Under the pieces are notes generated by a model. It had not been told where the DNA came from. It was given only the letters and a program-made list of their open reading frames with translations, and searched no databases. Below, in pieces: positions 39,880-47,908 of a stretch of DNA of 64,000 bases. The stretch's first letter is position 1. Every line of letters begins with the position of its first letter. The stretch covers positions 310,001-374,000 of the forward strand of contig NZ_JAHTMW010000002.1 in NCBI RefSeq assembly GCF_026236535.1. The letters are read 5' to 3'. The translations under genes were made by a program, and so were the position numbers. The DNA is from Streptomyces sp. SKN60 (GTDB lineage: Bacteria > Actinomycetota > Actinomycetes > Streptomycetales > Streptomycetaceae).

Positions 39880-42800
39880 TCAGTCCTGCGCGGGAGCGGC
39901 GGTCTTCTTGGCCGCCTTCTTGGCGGTCGTCTTCTTCGCCGCGGTCTTCTTGGCCGCCGTCTTCTTGGTGGCGGCCTTCTTCGCGGTGGCCTTCTTGGCG
40001 GTCTTGCGGGCCGCCTTCTTGGCCGGGGCGGGAGCCTCGGTCTCGGCGGCCCCCTCCGCGGCCTCCTCGGCGCTCTGGGCCGGCTCGGCCGGGGCGGACG
40101 CCACGACGACCACGGCGGCCTCCTCGGCACCGGTCGGCGGACCGGCCGGGGCGGTGGCCTTGCGGACCACCCGGCGGCGGGCCCGCGGCGGGGCGGCCAC
40201 GGGGGCCTCCTCGACGACCGGCTCGGCGACGGGCTCGGCGACCGGCTCGGCCGGGGCCTCCTCGGTCACGGCCGGCGCCTCGACGACGGCCTCGGGGGCC
40301 GGAGCGGAGACCTTACGGGTGGCCCGACGGCGGGTACGAGGCGCCGGGGCGGCCTCCTCCTCGGCGGCGGGCTCGGCGACGGGCGCGACGACCGGCTCGG
40401 GCGCCGCGACGGGCTCCTCGGCCTTCGGCTCCGCCTTGGGCTCCGGTACGACGACCTCGTAGGTCTCCGTCTCGGTGACCGCCGGCGAGGCGACGGGCGC
40501 GGACACCCGGCGGGTCGCCCGGCGCCGGCCACGGATGGGGGTACCTCCCGTGCCCTTGGGGCTACGGGGGAGCGTGGCGGCCGCCTCGGCCTCGGCGGCG
40601 CTGCCGTACAGCTCCTCGTCCGCGGCGATCGGCTCGGGCAGGGCCACCGGGGCGGCGAGCTCGGCGGCGACCTCGGCCTCGGTCTCGGCCTCCGTCGGCT
40701 CCGTCTCCACCGTCTCGGCGTGCTCGTGCTCGTGGACGTGCTCGGCGCCGCCGCGGCCGCGCTTCTTCGAGCGCTTGCCGCCGCCACCGCCACCGTGGGT
40801 GGCGGGCTGCTCCATGTGGACGATGACACCGCGGCCGTTGCAGTGGACGCAGGTCTCGGAGAAGGACTCCAGGAGGCCCTGGCCGACCCGCTTGCGGGTC
40901 ATCTGGACCAGGCCGAGCGAGGTGACCTCGGCCACCTGGTGCTTGGTCCGGTCGCGGCCCAGGCACTCCAGGAGGCGGCGCAGCACCAGGTCGCGGTTGG
41001 ACTCCAGGACCATGTCGATGAAGTCGATGACGACGATGCCGCCGAGGTCGCGCAGCCGCAGCTGGCGCACGATCTCCTCGGCCGCCTCCAGGTTGTTCCT
41101 GGTGACGGTCTCCTCGAGGTTGCCGCCCTGGCCGGTGAACTTGCCGGTGTTGACGTCGACGACGACCATCGCCTCGGTCTTGTCGATCACCAGCGAGCCG
41201 CCGGACGGCAGCCAGACCTTGCGGTCGAGCGCCTTCATCAGCTGCTCGTCGATCCGGTACGTCGCGAAGACGTCGACCTCGCTGGTCCACTTGGACAGGC
41301 GGTCGGACAGGTCCGGGGCGACGTGGTTCACGTAGCCGTGGATGGTCTCCCAGGCGTCCTCGCCGCTGACGATGACCTTGGAGAAGTCCTCGTTGAAGAT
41401 GTCGCGGACGACCCGGACGGTCATGTCCGGCTCGCCGTAGAGCAGGCTCGGCGCGGAGGTCGAGATCTGGGTGGCCTTCTTCTGGATGTCGGCCCACTGC
41501 GCCTGCAGGCGCTCGACGTCGCGGCGCAGCTCGTCCTCGCTCGCGCCCTCGGCGGCGGTGCGCACGATGACGCCCGCGTCCTCGGGGACGATCTTCTTGA
41601 GGATGGTCTTCAGACGCGCGCGCTCGGTGTCCGGGAGCTTGCGGCTGATGCCGGTCATGGAGCCCTCGGGCACGTACACGAGGTAGCGGCCCGGCAGCGA
41701 GACCTGGCTGGTCAGGCGGGCGCCCTTGTGGCCGATCGGGTCCTTGGTGACCTGCACCAGGACCGACTGGCCGGACTTGAGGGCGGCCTCGATACGGCGC
41801 GGGCCGTTGCCCATGCCGAGCGCCTCGAAGTTGACCTCGCCGGCGTACAGGACGGCGTTGCGGCCCTTGCCGATGTCGACGAACGCGGCCTCCATCGACG
41901 GCAGCACGTTCTGGACCTTGCCCAGGTAGACGTTGCCGACGTACGAGGTGGCCTGCTCCTTGTTGACGTAGTGCTCGACGAGCACGTTGTCCTCAAGGAC
42001 GCCGATCTGGGTGCGCTCGCCGTTCTGGCGGACGACCATGACGCGCTCGACGGCCTCGCGGCGGGCCAGGAACTCGGCCTCGGTGATGATCGGGACGCGG
42101 CGGCGGCCCTGCTCGCGGCCCTCGCGGCGGCGCTGCTTCTTGGCCTCCAGACGGGTGGAGCCCTTGATGGACTGCACCTCGTCGGACGGCTCGGCCTTCT
42201 CGCGGGCCGGGCGGGGCTCGCGGACCTTGACGACCGTGCGGACGCCGTCCTCGTCGGCGGCCTCGGCCTCACCGGCGGCGTCGCTGCGGCGACGGCGGCG
42301 GCGACGGCGGCGGGAGCTGCTGGAGCCGCCCGCGGCGCCCTCGGCCTCGGTGTCCTCCTCGGACTCCTCCGCCTCCTCGGCCTCGGTCTCCTCGGCGTGG
42401 AACTCCTCGCCCTCCTCGGACTCGGTGTCCTCGGCCTCGGCGAGCTCACCGCGGCGCCGGCGGCGGCCACCGCGACGGCGGCGGCGGGACGGCCGGTCCT
42501 CGTACTCGTCGGTCTCCTCGCCCTCGACCTCGGCCTCCGCCTCGGGGGTGGACTCGACCTCGGGCTCGTCGGCGACGGTGGCCGGGACCGGCTCGACGGC
42601 GACGGGCTCGCCGCGGCGGCGGCGACGGCGGCGGGAGCGCGGGGACTCCTCGGCCTCGACGGCCTCGACGACCGGCGCGACGGTCTCGGCCTCGGCGGTC
42701 TCCTCCTCCGGCTCCTCCTCGACGACCTCGGCCGCGGCCATGGCGGCGGCGGTCTCCGGGGTCTGGAACATCGGCTCGGTGAAGACCGGGGCCTGGAAGA

Positions 42801-43545
42801 CGGCGACGGCCGGGCGGGCGGCGCGGCGGCCGCGCGGGGCCTCCTCGGCCTCCTTGGCCTCCTTGGCCGGGGCGGCCTCGGTGCCGGCGGTGAACTGCGG
42901 CGAGGACGCGCGGCGGCGGGTGCGGCCACGGGTGGCGGCCTGCTCGGCGGCGACGACCTCGGCGGTGTGCGAGGCGATCTCCTCGACGGTGTCCTCGGGC
43001 AGGCCCTCGCCGGAGGTCTCCGCGGCGATCTCGGCGGCGACGTCCGCGGTCACGGCCTCGACCGGGGCGGGCGCGGTGGCCTTACGGGTGGCCCGGCGGC
43101 GGGTACGGGGCGCCGGGGCGGCCTCGGGCTCGGCGGCGGGCTCCTCGGCCGGGGCCACGGCCTCGACGGCCTCGGGGGCCGGAGCGGCGGTGGCGCGCGT
43201 GGCGCGACGGCGGGTACGGGGCGCCGGGGCGGCCTCGGGCTCGGCGGCCGGCTCCGCCACCGGTGCGGCGGCCTCGGCCGGGGCGGGGGTGGTCTCGGGC
43301 GCGGTGGCCTTGCGGGTGGCGCGGCGACGGGTGCGCGGAGCCGGAGCGGCCTCCTCGACCGGCGCGGCCTCGGCCTCGGCCACGGGCGCGGCGACCGGCG
43401 TGGTCTCCACGATCTCGGTGGTCTCGGCGGCGGCCTCGGCCGTCACCGGCGGACCGGCCGGCCGGGACGCGGCGCGGCGACGGCGGCGCGGCGGCAGCTT
43501 GTCACCGGCGTTGCCGTTCTCGTTTTCTTCGTGCTGTTCGAGCAT
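39880..43545 (-). CDS. rne: Rne/Rng family ribonuclease (RNase E/G)
   Basis: 1221 residues. An N-terminal arm (1-~480) is Ala/Glu/Pro-rich with three TRRRATR boxes and acidic/Arg-rich blocks. The catalytic core (~483-905) starts VPIITEAEFLARREAVERVM, has an S1-like region (YVGNVYLGKVQNVLPSMEAA), the Mg-binding Asp residues in VVVDVNTGKFTGQGGN (~795) and IVVIDFIDMVLESNRD (~838), and a Zn-link CVHCNGRG (~900). A C-terminal arm follows with more RRRATR-type boxes and a Lys/Ala tail (AAKKTAAKKTTAKKAAKK), histone-H1-like. Arms on both sides are typical of actinobacterial RNase E. A palindromic repeat lies in frame inside the C-terminal arm (40535-40576). The 235-base region upstream shows no gene and may be the 5' leader. 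Confidence 0.96.
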   Translation of the reverse strand: MLEQHEENENGNAGDKLPPRRRRRAASRPAGPPVTAEAAAETTEIVETTPVAAPVAEAEAAPVEEAAPAPRTRRRATRKATAPETTPAPAEAAAPVAEPAAEPEAAPAPRTRRRATRATAAPAPEAVEAVAPAEEPAAEPEAAPAPRTRRRATRKATAPAPVEAVTADVAAEIAAETSGEGLPEDTVEEIASHTAEVVAAEQAATRGRTRRRASSPQFTAGTEAAPAKEAKEAEEAPRGRRAARPAVAVFQAPVFTEPMFQTPETAAAMAAAEVVEEEPEEETAEAETVAPVVEAVEAEESPRSRRRRRRRGEPVAVEPVPATVADEPEVESTPEAEAEVEGEETDEYEDRPSRRRRRGGRRRRRGELAEAEDTESEEGEEFHAEETEAEEAEESEEDTEAEGAAGGSSSSRRRRRRRRRSDAAGEAEAADEDGVRTVVKVREPRPAREKAEPSDEVQSIKGSTRLEAKKQRRREGREQGRRRVPIITEAEFLARREAVERVMVVRQNGERTQIGVLEDNVLVEHYVNKEQATSYVGNVYLGKVQNVLPSMEAAFVDIGKGRNAVLYAGEVNFEALGMGNGPRRIEAALKSGQSVLVQVTKDPIGHKGARLTSQVSLPGRYLVYVPEGSMTGISRKLPDTERARLKTILKKIVPEDAGVIVRTAAEGASEDELRRDVERLQAQWADIQKKATQISTSAPSLLYGEPDMTVRVVRDIFNEDFSKVIVSGEDAWETIHGYVNHVAPDLSDRLSKWTSEVDVFATYRIDEQLMKALDRKVWLPSGGSLVIDKTEAMVVVDVNTGKFTGQGGNLEETVTRNNLEAAEEIVRQLRLRDLGGIVVIDFIDMVLESNRDLVLRRLLECLGRDRTKHQVAEVTSLGLVQMTRKRVGQGLLESFSETCVHCNGRGVIVHMEQPATHGGGGGGKRSKKRGRGGAEHVHEHEHAETVETEPTEAETEAEVAAELAAPVALPEPIAADEELYGSAAEAEAAATLPRSPKGTGGTPIRGRRRATRRVSAPVASPAVTETETYEVVVPEPKAEPKAEEPVAAPEPVVAPVAEPAAEEEAAPAPRTRRRATRKVSAPAPEAVVEAPAVTEEAPAEPVAEPVAEPVVEEAPVAAPPRARRRVVRKATAPAGPPTGAEEAAVVVVASAPAEPAQSAEEAAEGAAETEAPAPAKKAARKTAKKATAKKAATKKTAAKKTAAKKTTAKKAAKKTAAPAQD
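40535..40576 (-). repeat. Palindromic streptomycete-type intergenic repeat, inside the rne coding frame
   Basis: The sequence is GC-rich and forms CTCCCGTGCCC-TT-GGGGCTACGGGGGAG, an imperfect hairpin, preceded by GGGGGTAC. From memory, closely similar elements are scattered between genes in streptomycete genomes. Here it encodes LPRSPKGTGGTPI in the rne C-terminal arm without breaking the frame. Confidence 0.6.
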
Positions 43546-43780: not shown

Positions 43781-44701
43781 CTACGCGGTACCCGCACCCG
43801 GCGCCGTCGCAGAAGCGGTCGCGGCGGCCGTGGGTGGAGCGGCCGTGACTGCCTCGCGGTCGGGCGCGAGCGGGTCGGTCACCGTGCCGGACTCCTCGTC
43901 GAAGAGCCCCTGCGCCAGCCTGGTCACCGCTGCGGGGACCGGCGGCGCCAGGTCGGCCACAGCTCGGAGACCGGACAGGGCGTCGTCGGGTCGCACGGCA
44001 GGTGCTACGTGCCGAACAACCAGCCGCAGTATCGCACAGGCGCTGTCCAGCGGCCTATCACCCTGGGGATCGCCCTGGGCGGGGGCCGCGGTCAGTTCCA
44101 CGACGGCACCGCGGGTGTCGAAGGTGCGGATTCCGTTCTTGGTCTTGCGCTGTACTTCCACGGTCTCGGCCGCGAGAAACGCCTCGGCGGCCTTGCGGGC
44201 CGTGTCGGTGTCGACCCCGTCGAGCCGCAGCTCCCACACGGAGGCGGTGAGCCGGTCGGCGAGGCCGGAGGTCCGGGCCTCGACGGCGTCGACGATGTCG
44301 AGGCCGGTCGGCATGGACTCGTCGAGCATGGCCCGCAGGGTCTCCGGGTCGCGGGTCGCGGTGAGCGCGATCTCCAGGTACTCGGCCTCGGAGCCGGTGC
44401 CCGTCGGTGCGGCGTTGGCGTACGACACCTTCGGGTGCGGGGTGAAGCCGGCCGAGTACGCCATGGGCACCTCGGCACGGCGCAGTGCGCGCTCGAAGGC
44501 GCGCTGGAAGTCACGGTGGCTGGTGAACCGGAGGCGGCCGCGCTTGGTGTAGCGCAGTCGGATGCGCTGCACCGCCGGTGCGGGCGGCGGGCCTTCGGGC
44601 TGTCGCTTGCCCAGTGGTTCTTCTCCTCGGTGCGGGGCGGGCGCGGCCGTCCGCGCCGCCCTCGAAATGCGGTGGTGCCCTGGGGGTCCCGCCCGGCTCA
44701 C
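43781..44701 (-). CDS. TIGR03936 family radical-SAM-associated protein (DUF2344)
   Basis: 306 residues from the GTG chosen. The conserved domain begins IRLRYTKRGRLRFTSHRDFQ, then AFERALRRAEVPMAYSAGFT, PHPKVSYANAAPTGTGSEAE, YLEIALTATRDPETLRAMLD and VWELRLDGVDTDTARKAAEA. It lacks a radical-SAM Cys motif; it is the usual partner of TIGR03960 proteins, and in some species is fused to them. GTG 44699-44701 overlaps the upstream stop (GTGA). A CTG at 44612-44614, with GAGGAG 8 bases upstream, would give a more family-like N-terminus (GKRQPEG), so the first 29 residues are doubtful. Reaction unknown; rne is the next gene downstream. Confidence 0.9.
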   Translation of the reverse strand: MSRAGPPGHHRISRAARTAAPAPHRGEEPLGKRQPEGPPPAPAVQRIRLRYTKRGRLRFTSHRDFQRAFERALRRAEVPMAYSAGFTPHPKVSYANAAPTGTGSEAEYLEIALTATRDPETLRAMLDESMPTGLDIVDAVEARTSGLADRLTASVWELRLDGVDTDTARKAAEAFLAAETVEVQRKTKNGIRTFDTRGAVVELTAAPAQGDPQGDRPLDSACAILRLVVRHVAPAVRPDDALSGLRAVADLAPPVPAAVTRLAQGLFDEESGTVTDPLAPDREAVTAAPPTAAATASATAPGAGTA

Positions 44702-45906
44702 CCCTGCTTGTGCAGGGAGATCTCGGGTGCGGGCGCCGCGCCGGGGACGTTCGTTGTACTACCCAGAGTACGCGCACCCGCCACCTGCGGTTCCCCGCCC
44801 CGGTCCGGCTCCGCCCCGCCGACGAGCGCCCGCCAGGCGTCCCGCCGGGCCTGGCGGACGGTGTCGCGGGCCGACGCGAGCGCGGTGCGCGCGGCGTGGC
44901 GGGCCTGGGCGAGCGCGGTGCGGGCCGGGTTCCAGACGGCGTCGCGGATCCAGTGCCCGACGGGGGTGCAGACCTGGCGGTACGCCCAGGCGAGGGGCCT
45001 CCGGACCAGGTTGCGGCCCAGCCAGCGGAGGGGCTGGACGAGCAGGACGCGCAGCGCCCACCCGATCGCCCGCCCCACGGCCCGCGACACGAAGCCGGCG
45101 GCCCGCCAGCAGATCCCGATGGCGTCGCGGATCTCGCGCCCGAGCGGGGCGAGGAAGCGCCGCCAGAGCCAGCCGATGGGGCGGGCGATGCCGTACGTGA
45201 CGAAGGGCACGAGCAGATACCGCCAGAGGGCGGCGAACGGCCAGGCGACGACGATCCCGGTCCACCGCGCGGCGGCGGCGAGGCCGCGGCCGATCCGGAC
45301 GAGTCCCCAGGCCAGCCCCTGCCAGATCCCGCCGAAGAACCAGGCGAGCCCGCGCCCCAGGCCGGTGAACACCCAGGTCAGGCCCTGCCCCGTACGGGTG
45401 AGCAGCCACCCGATGCCCCGGCCCAGCGGCGCGAGCACCGCGCCGTACAGCCACACCAACGGCACGACAATCACGTACCGCCACAGCATCACCAGCGGCC
45501 AAGCGATGATCCGGCCGAGGCCGGTGAGCAGCCAGGCGAGCCCTCGGCCCAGGCCGGTGAACAGCCAGGCGAGCCCTCGCCCCAGGCCGGTGAACACCCA
45601 GGCCAGCCCGTGGCCCGTACGAGTGAGCAGCCACCCGATGCCCCGGCCCAGCGGGGCGAGCACCGCGCCGTACAGCCAGACCACCGGGGCGACGATCACG
45701 TACCGCCACAGCATGACGAAGGGCCAGGCGACGGCCCGGCCGACCGGGCGGAGGACGGCGCGGTCGAGGAAGCGGGCGGTGGCCTTGAGGGCGTCCCAGG
45801 TCATGCGGACCGGGAGGATCAGGACCAGCACGACGATCCGCACCGGGATGCGGATCAGGGCGTGCGGGGCGGCGGGCGGGGGCGGCGCCGGGTTTTCCGT
45901 GCTCAT
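44698..45906 (-). CDS. Trp-rich 11-residue-repeat protein, membrane/lipid associated, function unknown
   Basis: 402 residues. After a short Pro/Ala N-terminus and a hydrophobic helix (LIRIPVRIVVLVLILPVRM), most of the protein falls into 11-residue units such as LGRGIGWLLTR, TGHGLAWVFTG, LGRGLAWLFTG and LGRGLAWLLTG. A 57-residue block (A60-F116) recurs at A135-F191 nearly unchanged, and a degenerate third copy starts near 221. The C-terminal third becomes Arg/Ala-rich (PARTALAQARHAARTALASA), still 11-periodic. Such 11-mers build long amphipathic helices that lie on membranes. No enzymatic motif. Stop overlaps TIGR03936 gene (GTGA); a perfect terminator precedes its start by 15 bases and no Shine-Dalgarno is visible. 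Confidence 0.8.
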   Translation of the reverse strand: MSTENPAPPPPAAPHALIRIPVRIVVLVLILPVRMTWDALKATARFLDRAVLRPVGRAVAWPFVMLWRYVIVAPVVWLYGAVLAPLGRGIGWLLTRTGHGLAWVFTGLGRGLAWLFTGLGRGLAWLLTGLGRIIAWPLVMLWRYVIVVPLVWLYGAVLAPLGRGIGWLLTRTGQGLTWVFTGLGRGLAWFFGGIWQGLAWGLVRIGRGLAAAARWTGIVVAWPFAALWRYLLVPFVTYGIARPIGWLWRRFLAPLGREIRDAIGICWRAAGFVSRAVGRAIGWALRVLLVQPLRWLGRNLVRRPLAWAYRQVCTPVGHWIRDAVWNPARTALAQARHAARTALASARDTVRQARRDAWRALVGGAEPDRGGEPQVAGARTLGSTTNVPGAAPAPEISLHKQG

Positions 45907-45921
45907 GACGGGAGGGACGCA

Positions 45922-45959
45922 GACGGCCCGGCGGAGGGTTCTCCCTCCGCCGGGCCGTC
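45922..45959 (-). terminator. Perfect 17-bp hairpin between TIGR03960 gene and the Trp-rich repeat gene
   Basis: GACGGCCCGGCGGAGGG, loop (AGAA on the minus strand), exact complement. It lies 20 bases after the TIGR03960 stop and only 15 bases before the start of the next gene on the same strand, so there is no room for a separate promoter between hairpin and start codon. Confidence 0.85.

Positions 45960-45979: not shown

Positions 45980-47908
<1,929 letters not shown>

Follow-up and report, generated by a model that had tools for sequence, protein, structure and literature searches.

What kind of protein is encoded by the tryptophan-rich gene that lies between two radical-SAM genes in Streptomyces sp. 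SKN60, and does it belong with them? The gene occupies positions 44698–45906, on the minus strand, of the 64,000-nucleotide stretch of DNA that was analysed (the window). It codes for a protein of 402 residues rich in arginine and tryptophan (the window protein), from an ATG at 45906 to a stop at 44698. A first-pass annotation of the sequence had described it as a possible membrane-coating protein built almost throughout from 11-residue units and translationally coupled to one of its radical-SAM neighbours. That observation is real, yet overstated: the window protein carries a long-range amphipathic helical register with arginine on one side only, it belongs, as judged by sequence searches, to a so far undescribed actinobacterial family, and its position between the two radical-SAM genes looks accidental. 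We favour, at about even confidence, a cytoplasmic peripheral membrane protein that would lay an array of amphipathic helices in the plane of an anionic membrane or lipid-inclusion surface.

Coding evidence and internal repeats

The open reading frame is borne out as a real, coding gene on the minus strand by homologues and codon statistics. The GC contents at codon positions 1, 2 and 3 are 0.73, 0.59 and 0.95, and in 6/6 homologue pairs codon position 3 changes most, ahead of positions 1 and 2; on these two counts the frame is a gene. An artefact of reading-frame calling was considered and ruled out by the homologue matches together with this codon-position pattern.

The duplication of a 57-residue block reported in the first-pass annotation was recovered by self-comparison. 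Copy 1 (residues 60–116, positions 45559–45729, minus strand as for all the repeats) and copy 2 (residues 135–191, positions 45334–45504) share 51/57 amino acids and 152/171 nucleotides, while a proposed third copy, starting at A221, is weak (14/40 amino acids identical to the first). Self-identity far exceeds that of shuffled sequences at lags of 11 (z=11.5) and 75 (z=10.2), and the strongest lag across the family is again 11 (mean z 4.2). Repeats at lag 11 do not, as had been claimed, take in nearly the whole chain. Scored at an identity of at least 5/11, they span just 133 of the 402 residues (null mean 6, maximum 52 residues in 200 shuffles), in three tracts: tandem 11-mers of the LGRGLAWLFTG type at residues 91–145 (positions 45472–45636), a second tract at residues 166–210 (45277–45411), and alanine- and arginine-containing units at residues 322–354 (44845–44943), inside the best-predicted part of the structural model described below.

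Nor is 11/3 the dominant hydrophobic period. The strongest period of the window protein is 3.78, with a power of 6.2 where 500 shuffles reached 4.0 at most; at 3.66 its power is 2.85. The family mean, taken over 39 Streptomycetaceae members including the window protein, has its maximum at 3.82 (mean power 6.0; shuffles give about 1.0); a peak at 3.64 was seen only in the three g2 members of this set. Family members were here defined as matches that pass a filter for tryptophan and hydrophobicity; L004 was not included, and L032, with a broken frame, was removed.

Helix faces and charge register

When residues are placed on a helical wheel, arginine is strongly one-sided. Among the 36 non-g2 members its frequency is 3.1 times expectation at the polar centre but 0.04 times at the hydrophobic centre, and in the window protein itself it is enriched 2.1–2.8-fold on the polar side and absent from the hydrophobic centre. 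In the same 36 members leucine, valine, isoleucine and phenylalanine peak at or beside the hydrophobic centre, with proline on one flank. A charged face that is continuous, and a hydrophobic face, were found in the window protein and in its family.

The register of basic residues is long. In the 39 Streptomycetaceae members plus L103, pairs of arginine or lysine are enriched at spacings of 4, 7–8, 11–12, 15, 19, 22–23, 26–27, 30, 34, 38 and 42 and depleted at 2, 5–6, 9, 13, 17, 21, 24 and 28, so that helical phase persists to about 42 residues. A similar register, scored to a spacing of 30, is present in the window protein alone and in two sets of distant relatives (see below), namely eight proteins of genus g20 and five of family f80.

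The window protein matches transporters in hydrophobicity and exceeds them in moment. Mean hydrophobicity on the Fauchere-Pliska scale is 0.71, compared with 0.65 and 0.64 in two major facilitator superfamily (MFS) transporters and 0.24 and 0.36 in two soluble controls; the hydrophobic moment is 0.30–0.33, compared with 0.17–0.18 and 0.23–0.25 in the same two pairs. The mean net charge is +1.9 per 18 residues.

Family and distribution

Searches of Pfam, NCBIfam and PDB sequences returned no match of weight to the family. In Pfam nothing came near the cut-off for the window protein (P0002), for three distant relatives or for 17 members. The best chance matches of the window protein had expect values (E) of 0.02 in NCBIfam and 0.16 in the PDB, and three Pfam families reached E 0.005–0.006, each in one of the 17 members. 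Narrow term searches of a limited set of open-access papers gave no description of the protein, and tblastn of plasmid sequences with it found no copies. The description as an amphipathic, almost entirely helical repeat protein of no described family is supported by the charge register, the helical models and these empty profile searches, and the protein plausibly lies on membranes, as was first proposed.

The gene is common among close relatives. Of the 150 genomes in a genus sample, 117 have a match at E 0.001 (the genome of origin and remnants such as that at L081 being counted) and 33 do not, so it is false that the protein is missing from nearly all its relatives. Matches were found in 47/101 genomes and 5/17 genera of the family sample, in 105/147 genomes and 1/5 genera of the order sample, and in 8/246 genomes and 2/170 genera of the phylum sample. 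Starting from one of the phylum matches, the 266-residue protein of genome G290, a second group was found, with matches to that protein in 37/78 genomes of its genus, g20. In a class sample, the Streptomycetaceae profile matches 27/296 genomes from 4/114 genera, three of these genera belonging to family f80, and the g20 profile matches 18/296 genomes, some of them in long frames of unrelated look. Alignment of the Streptomycetaceae and g20 profiles gives a probability of 99.5% and E 1e-22 over 226 columns, values that repetitive composition may inflate; the N-terminal signature (VPVRL.WE and LPVRM.WD, respectively) stands at the matching place in this alignment. For g20, 12 loci yielded nine proteins, of which eight were used (L185, whose end is apparently out of frame, was left out); for f80, seven loci yielded six proteins (L223 was unresolved), of which five were used for the charge register.

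Members that were read vary from 206 to 584 residues in length. The strongest N-terminal signature of the family is the helix at residues 19–45 (positions 45772–45852, minus strand), in which R19, P21, V22, V25, P32, V33, R34, W37, D38 and L40 are invariant columns in 17 members, and P32, W37 and R45 in 13 members from five genera.

Predicted structure and membrane association

AlphaFold models agree with a helical protein. With an alignment of three rows, the window protein is modelled as helices at residues 22–216 and 221–362, and a second family member as helices at 26–131 and 139–320; the best-predicted stretch of the window protein is residues 321–360 (block means of the predicted local distance difference test, pLDDT, 78–88). 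Amphipathic repeats being present in the sequence, the case of an ordinary polytopic protein that lacks them does not apply.

In the reading that we favour, the window protein would be a cytoplasmic peripheral membrane protein built as a chain of amphipathic helices, with leucine, valine, isoleucine and phenylalanine turned toward lipid and the arginine stripe toward anionic head groups and the cytoplasm. Such a protein would bind through the summed length of contact instead of through a folded pocket; the number of repeats would then be free to drift, as the spread of lengths suggests, altering the contact length only, whereas two helices, the N-terminal signature one and a basic one at the C terminus, would be retained. 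The protein may coat the inner membrane or lipid inclusions, or be tethered to them.

Several observations weigh against this reading. A straight α helix, or one of period 11/3, has a shorter period than 3.8, so that keeping a single face flat for 340 residues calls for underwinding or for kinks at prolines; the regularly placed prolines are a candidate cause. Tryptophan avoids the middle of the hydrophobic face and reaches its highest frequency at or close to the polar side (2.1-fold at 180 degrees in the window protein, 2.0-fold at 225 degrees in the family). A simple model in which tryptophan inserts into lipid fails to account for this placement, which could instead reflect interfacial or helix-helix contacts, and which lowers our confidence in helices lying in the plane of the membrane and raises that in a coiled coil. 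The hydrophobic moments of the weakest relatives, L103 (0.24–0.29) and L123 (0.26–0.30), hardly exceed those of the soluble controls. The confidence of both AlphaFold models is poor (pLDDT 57 and 62, predicted template-modelling score 0.24 and 0.22, for the window protein and the second member, respectively), so the models serve just to indicate a helical protein with no globular fold seen. On the octanol scale the window protein has ten favourable 19-residue segments, a hydropathy sufficient for insertion, and 46% of its 19-residue windows are favourable, compared with 32–33% in the two MFS controls. Three members (L007, L009 and L019) carry five uncharged hydrophobic runs of at least 18 residues; together with the octanol hydropathy, these leave room for transmembrane insertion.

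The last points lead to the strongest alternative, an ordinary polytopic membrane protein with short helices, kinked at prolines, that span the bilayer and with arginines that line a groove or pore. The MFS-like mean hydrophobicity and the octanol values speak for it, as do two uncharged runs of 19 residues in the window protein (69–87 and 144–162). Uncharged runs of at least 18 residues are few, however: two in the window protein and 0–5 across members, with none in 15/40, against seven in each of the two MFS controls (the control APC_L124, a mistranslated sequence, was left out of this comparison). On reading the sequence, arginines are found at both ends of both runs, so that charge does not alternate between inside and outside, and the register of basic residues runs on through the would-be loops. 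We regard a polytopic protein as unlikely, but as a serious contender.

A protein-protein filament or bundle, formed as a right-handed coiled coil of the 15/4 or 19/5 type and not mainly membrane bound, is a further alternative. Right-handed coiled coils have periods of 3.75–3.82, a range into which the values of both the window protein and the family fall; the modelled helices are nearly continuous, and tryptophan beside arginine on the outer face could mediate contacts between helices. The protein is, on the other hand, much more hydrophobic than the soluble controls and unusually so for a coil in solution, and it contains 28 prolines and 48 glycines in 402 residues. Such an assembly seems to us improbable, and clearly more so than a polytopic fold.

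Genomic neighbourhood

The assignments of the two flanking genes in the first-pass annotation were correct. The upstream neighbour (positions 45980–47908, minus strand) is a B12-binding radical SAM gene that matches TIGR03960 of NCBIfam with 705 bits, and the downstream one matches TIGR03936 (DUF2344) with 175 bits; its probable extent, from the profile match and a conserved CTG, is 43781–44614 on the minus strand, whereas the mechanically called frame starts at GTG 44701. The window protein is flanked by this pair but is no member of it. SCO2599 is RNase E in S. coelicolor in the available part of PMC4681348, from which SCO2600–2602 would be the S. coelicolor genes of this locus. The RNase E/G gene of the window, at 39880–43545, has long flanks rich in glutamate, alanine and arginine around its catalytic domain.

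The window protein might act as a partner of the TIGR03960/TIGR03936 system or might anchor the downstream RNase E to the membrane. Its conservation at the locus fits: a coordinate comparison of the 29 matching family genomes outside the genus placed the gene within 4.2 kb of TIGR03936, on the same contig and strand, in 28, the remaining genome having the two on different contigs. Yet the gene is missing from the 33 match-less genomes of the genus sample, and TIGR03936 occurs well beyond it, in 147/150 against 117/150 genus genomes and in 101/101 against 47/101 family genomes. No TIGR03960 or TIGR03936 was seen by BLASTP (1e-4) at the 12 g20 loci, nor at nine loci of f80 and other class matches, whose neighbours vary. 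At the g20 loci the neighbours include clusters of an MFS transporter (10/12), SDR (6) and the urease accessory proteins UreG (6) and UreF (5), each cluster being named from Pfam matches of one or two of its members.

TIGR03936 is present in 32 of the 33 match-less genus genomes, and these loci were read. None of the 32 contains a tryptophan-rich frame of the window-protein kind (L060, which a crude filter flagged, is by eye another membrane protein, as are L119 and L124, flagged likewise). The end of TIGR03960 was readable in 23 of them, and its distance to the TIGR03936 match is 60–203 bp in 12/23 and longer in the rest, where those tested hold other genes. Two of eight matched loci that were fetched also lack the full gene: L080, and L081, with a remnant of 134 residues. 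The TIGR03960–TIGR03936 gap is a variable site, with extra genes in L043, L049, L052, L069, L073, L075, L078, L080 and L150. These include, by Pfam, a GNAT gene (L052), a protein kinase (L049), a LuxR-type regulator (L043) and a PIN-domain gene (L080), the others being assigned by eye; they stand alone except in L075 and L078, where they lie beside the tryptophan-rich gene.

Hairpin, promoter-like element and start of TIGR03936

Between the TIGR03960 stop and the start of the window gene lies a perfect 17-bp hairpin (45922–45959, minus strand), terminator-like on folding but with no U tract. The 86-nucleotide hairpin region has a minimum free energy of -49.6 (z -4.2 against dinucleotide shuffles). 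Across 78 loci, the 90 nucleotides past the TIGR03960 stop give a median folding z of -3.6 (mononucleotide shuffles), and a perfect stem of at least 8 is present in 27/78. For this count and for those of promoter parts, CTG starts and GTGA overlaps that follow, duplicate loci were taken out so that each genome counts once.

A promoter-like element is found within the 3' coding end of the window gene (44765–44795, minus strand), ahead of TIGR03936 and RNase E. It consists of GGGAAC (44790–44795), a spacer of 17 nucleotides and CGTACTCT (44765–44772); the latter part, with the DNA that follows, encodes the conserved RTLGS tail of the protein, and this tail is, as far as sequence comparison goes, a DNA element. 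Both parts at this spacing are present in 26/29 genus loci with the gene. Where the gene is lacking, the -10 part is found in 18/27 genus loci, ten of which also have the -35 part at a spacing of 14–20. In other genera the -10 part is found in 9/11 loci with the gene and 14/25 without it; the -35 part accompanies it in none of the former and in two of the latter. Each part was scored at up to one mismatch in the 92 loci with a recognised start; the null rate of the -10 part is 2.7% (1840 shuffles). The TACTCT within the element presumably fits a vegetative -10 as well. Sigma-E promoters shown in PMC6767563 have a layout similar to GGGAAC-N17-CGT, with a like -35 part and spacing, but most of them carry CGTC or a similar -10 where this element has CGTACT.

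The start of TIGR03936 appears to lie further downstream than the mechanical call. The likely true start, from conservation across loci, is a CTG (44612–44614) preceded by GAGGAG (44623–44628), on the minus strand and 83 nucleotides past the stop of the window gene. A recognisable start (LGKRQ, LGRRQ or LARR) is present in 86/94 loci, and in all 86 the codon is CTG; in 57 of these there is no ATG, GTG or TTG between the CTG and the upstream in-frame stop. The count leaves out L142, L143, L144, L146 and L147, matched at the wrong place, and L119, L131 and L151, which were unresolved. From this comparison a conserved CTG with a good Shine-Dalgarno sequence appears to be the start of TIGR03936 in the Streptomycetaceae; calling by ATG, GTG or TTG puts the start elsewhere.

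The translational coupling to TIGR03936 that had been claimed is accordingly unsupported. The GTGA overlap itself recurs in 22/27 loci, which counts in favour of coupling, but its GTG is in frame with the conserved CTG in only 8/22, because insertions or deletions of 1–2 nucleotides lie between the two; the stretch from GTGA to CTG behaves as non-coding. The GTG at 44701 that suggested coupling is probably an artefact of reading-frame calling.

Relatives amid unrelated genes in other lineages, the hairpin and promoter-like element that part the units, and the CTG start make the radical-SAM link a positional one. The window gene and its neighbours look like separate units, and a functional tie to the pair found no support; a partner of the radical-SAM system or of RNase E, which we consider very unlikely, was rejected as the principal explanation. 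On our preferred reading, of a peripheral amphipathic-helix protein, the window gene would be independent and its site in the Streptomycetaceae a tolerant spot between the hairpin of one unit and the promoter of the next. That the frame is a fast-evolving GC-rich spacer of little or no function, its conserved tail serving only as a downstream promoter, is hardly credible: the tail DNA element does occur in many loci lacking the gene, and the L081 remnant and the 33 match-less genomes would suit a spacer, but the open frame with its third-position excess of changes is kept, and the N-terminal signature and arginine register persist across three lineages with differing neighbourhoods.

Comparison with known systems

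The nearest analogue in manner of working, though not a relative, would be perilipin Plin4. Like Plin4 and the exchangeable apolipoproteins, as presented in the available part of PMC5889406, the window protein has a predicted very long amphipathic helix, 11-residue units over part of the chain, and predicted summed lipid contacts. It differs from them in its period of 3.8 in place of 11/3, in having no Pfam match, and in showing no four-helix bundle in the low-confidence models. Perilipins are weakly hydrophobic and the Plin4 helix is without bulky residues, according to the portion of PMC8064757 available, whereas the window protein is hydrophobic and rich in tryptophan and arginine.

Closer in taxonomy are PspA and TadA/HbhA, actinobacterial proteins that the accessible part of PMC10699116 reports at lipid inclusions; unlike them, the window family has no profile match to any described family, and its role at lipid inclusions is a conjecture. 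The same part of that source lists Nocardia and Streptomyces among the makers of lipid inclusions, which by analogy allows such a role. A more specific version, rather improbable in our view, is that the family is a bacterial counterpart of the perilipins: a family of giant amphipathic-helix proteins, containing arginine and tryptophan and of independent origin, with a 3.8 register reset by prolines, that would coat lipid inclusions or specialised membranes in actinomycetes with large genomes. Its hosts would mostly be mycelial actinomycetes.

The analysis points to a CTG start codon of TIGR03936 that simple reading-frame calling misses. If the favoured reading is true, it would give a physical role to a common, unannotated protein of Streptomyces-type bacteria, and the members, from 206 to 584 residues, would form a natural length series for testing how the length of an amphipathic helix, its tryptophan and its arginine set the choice of lipid surface.

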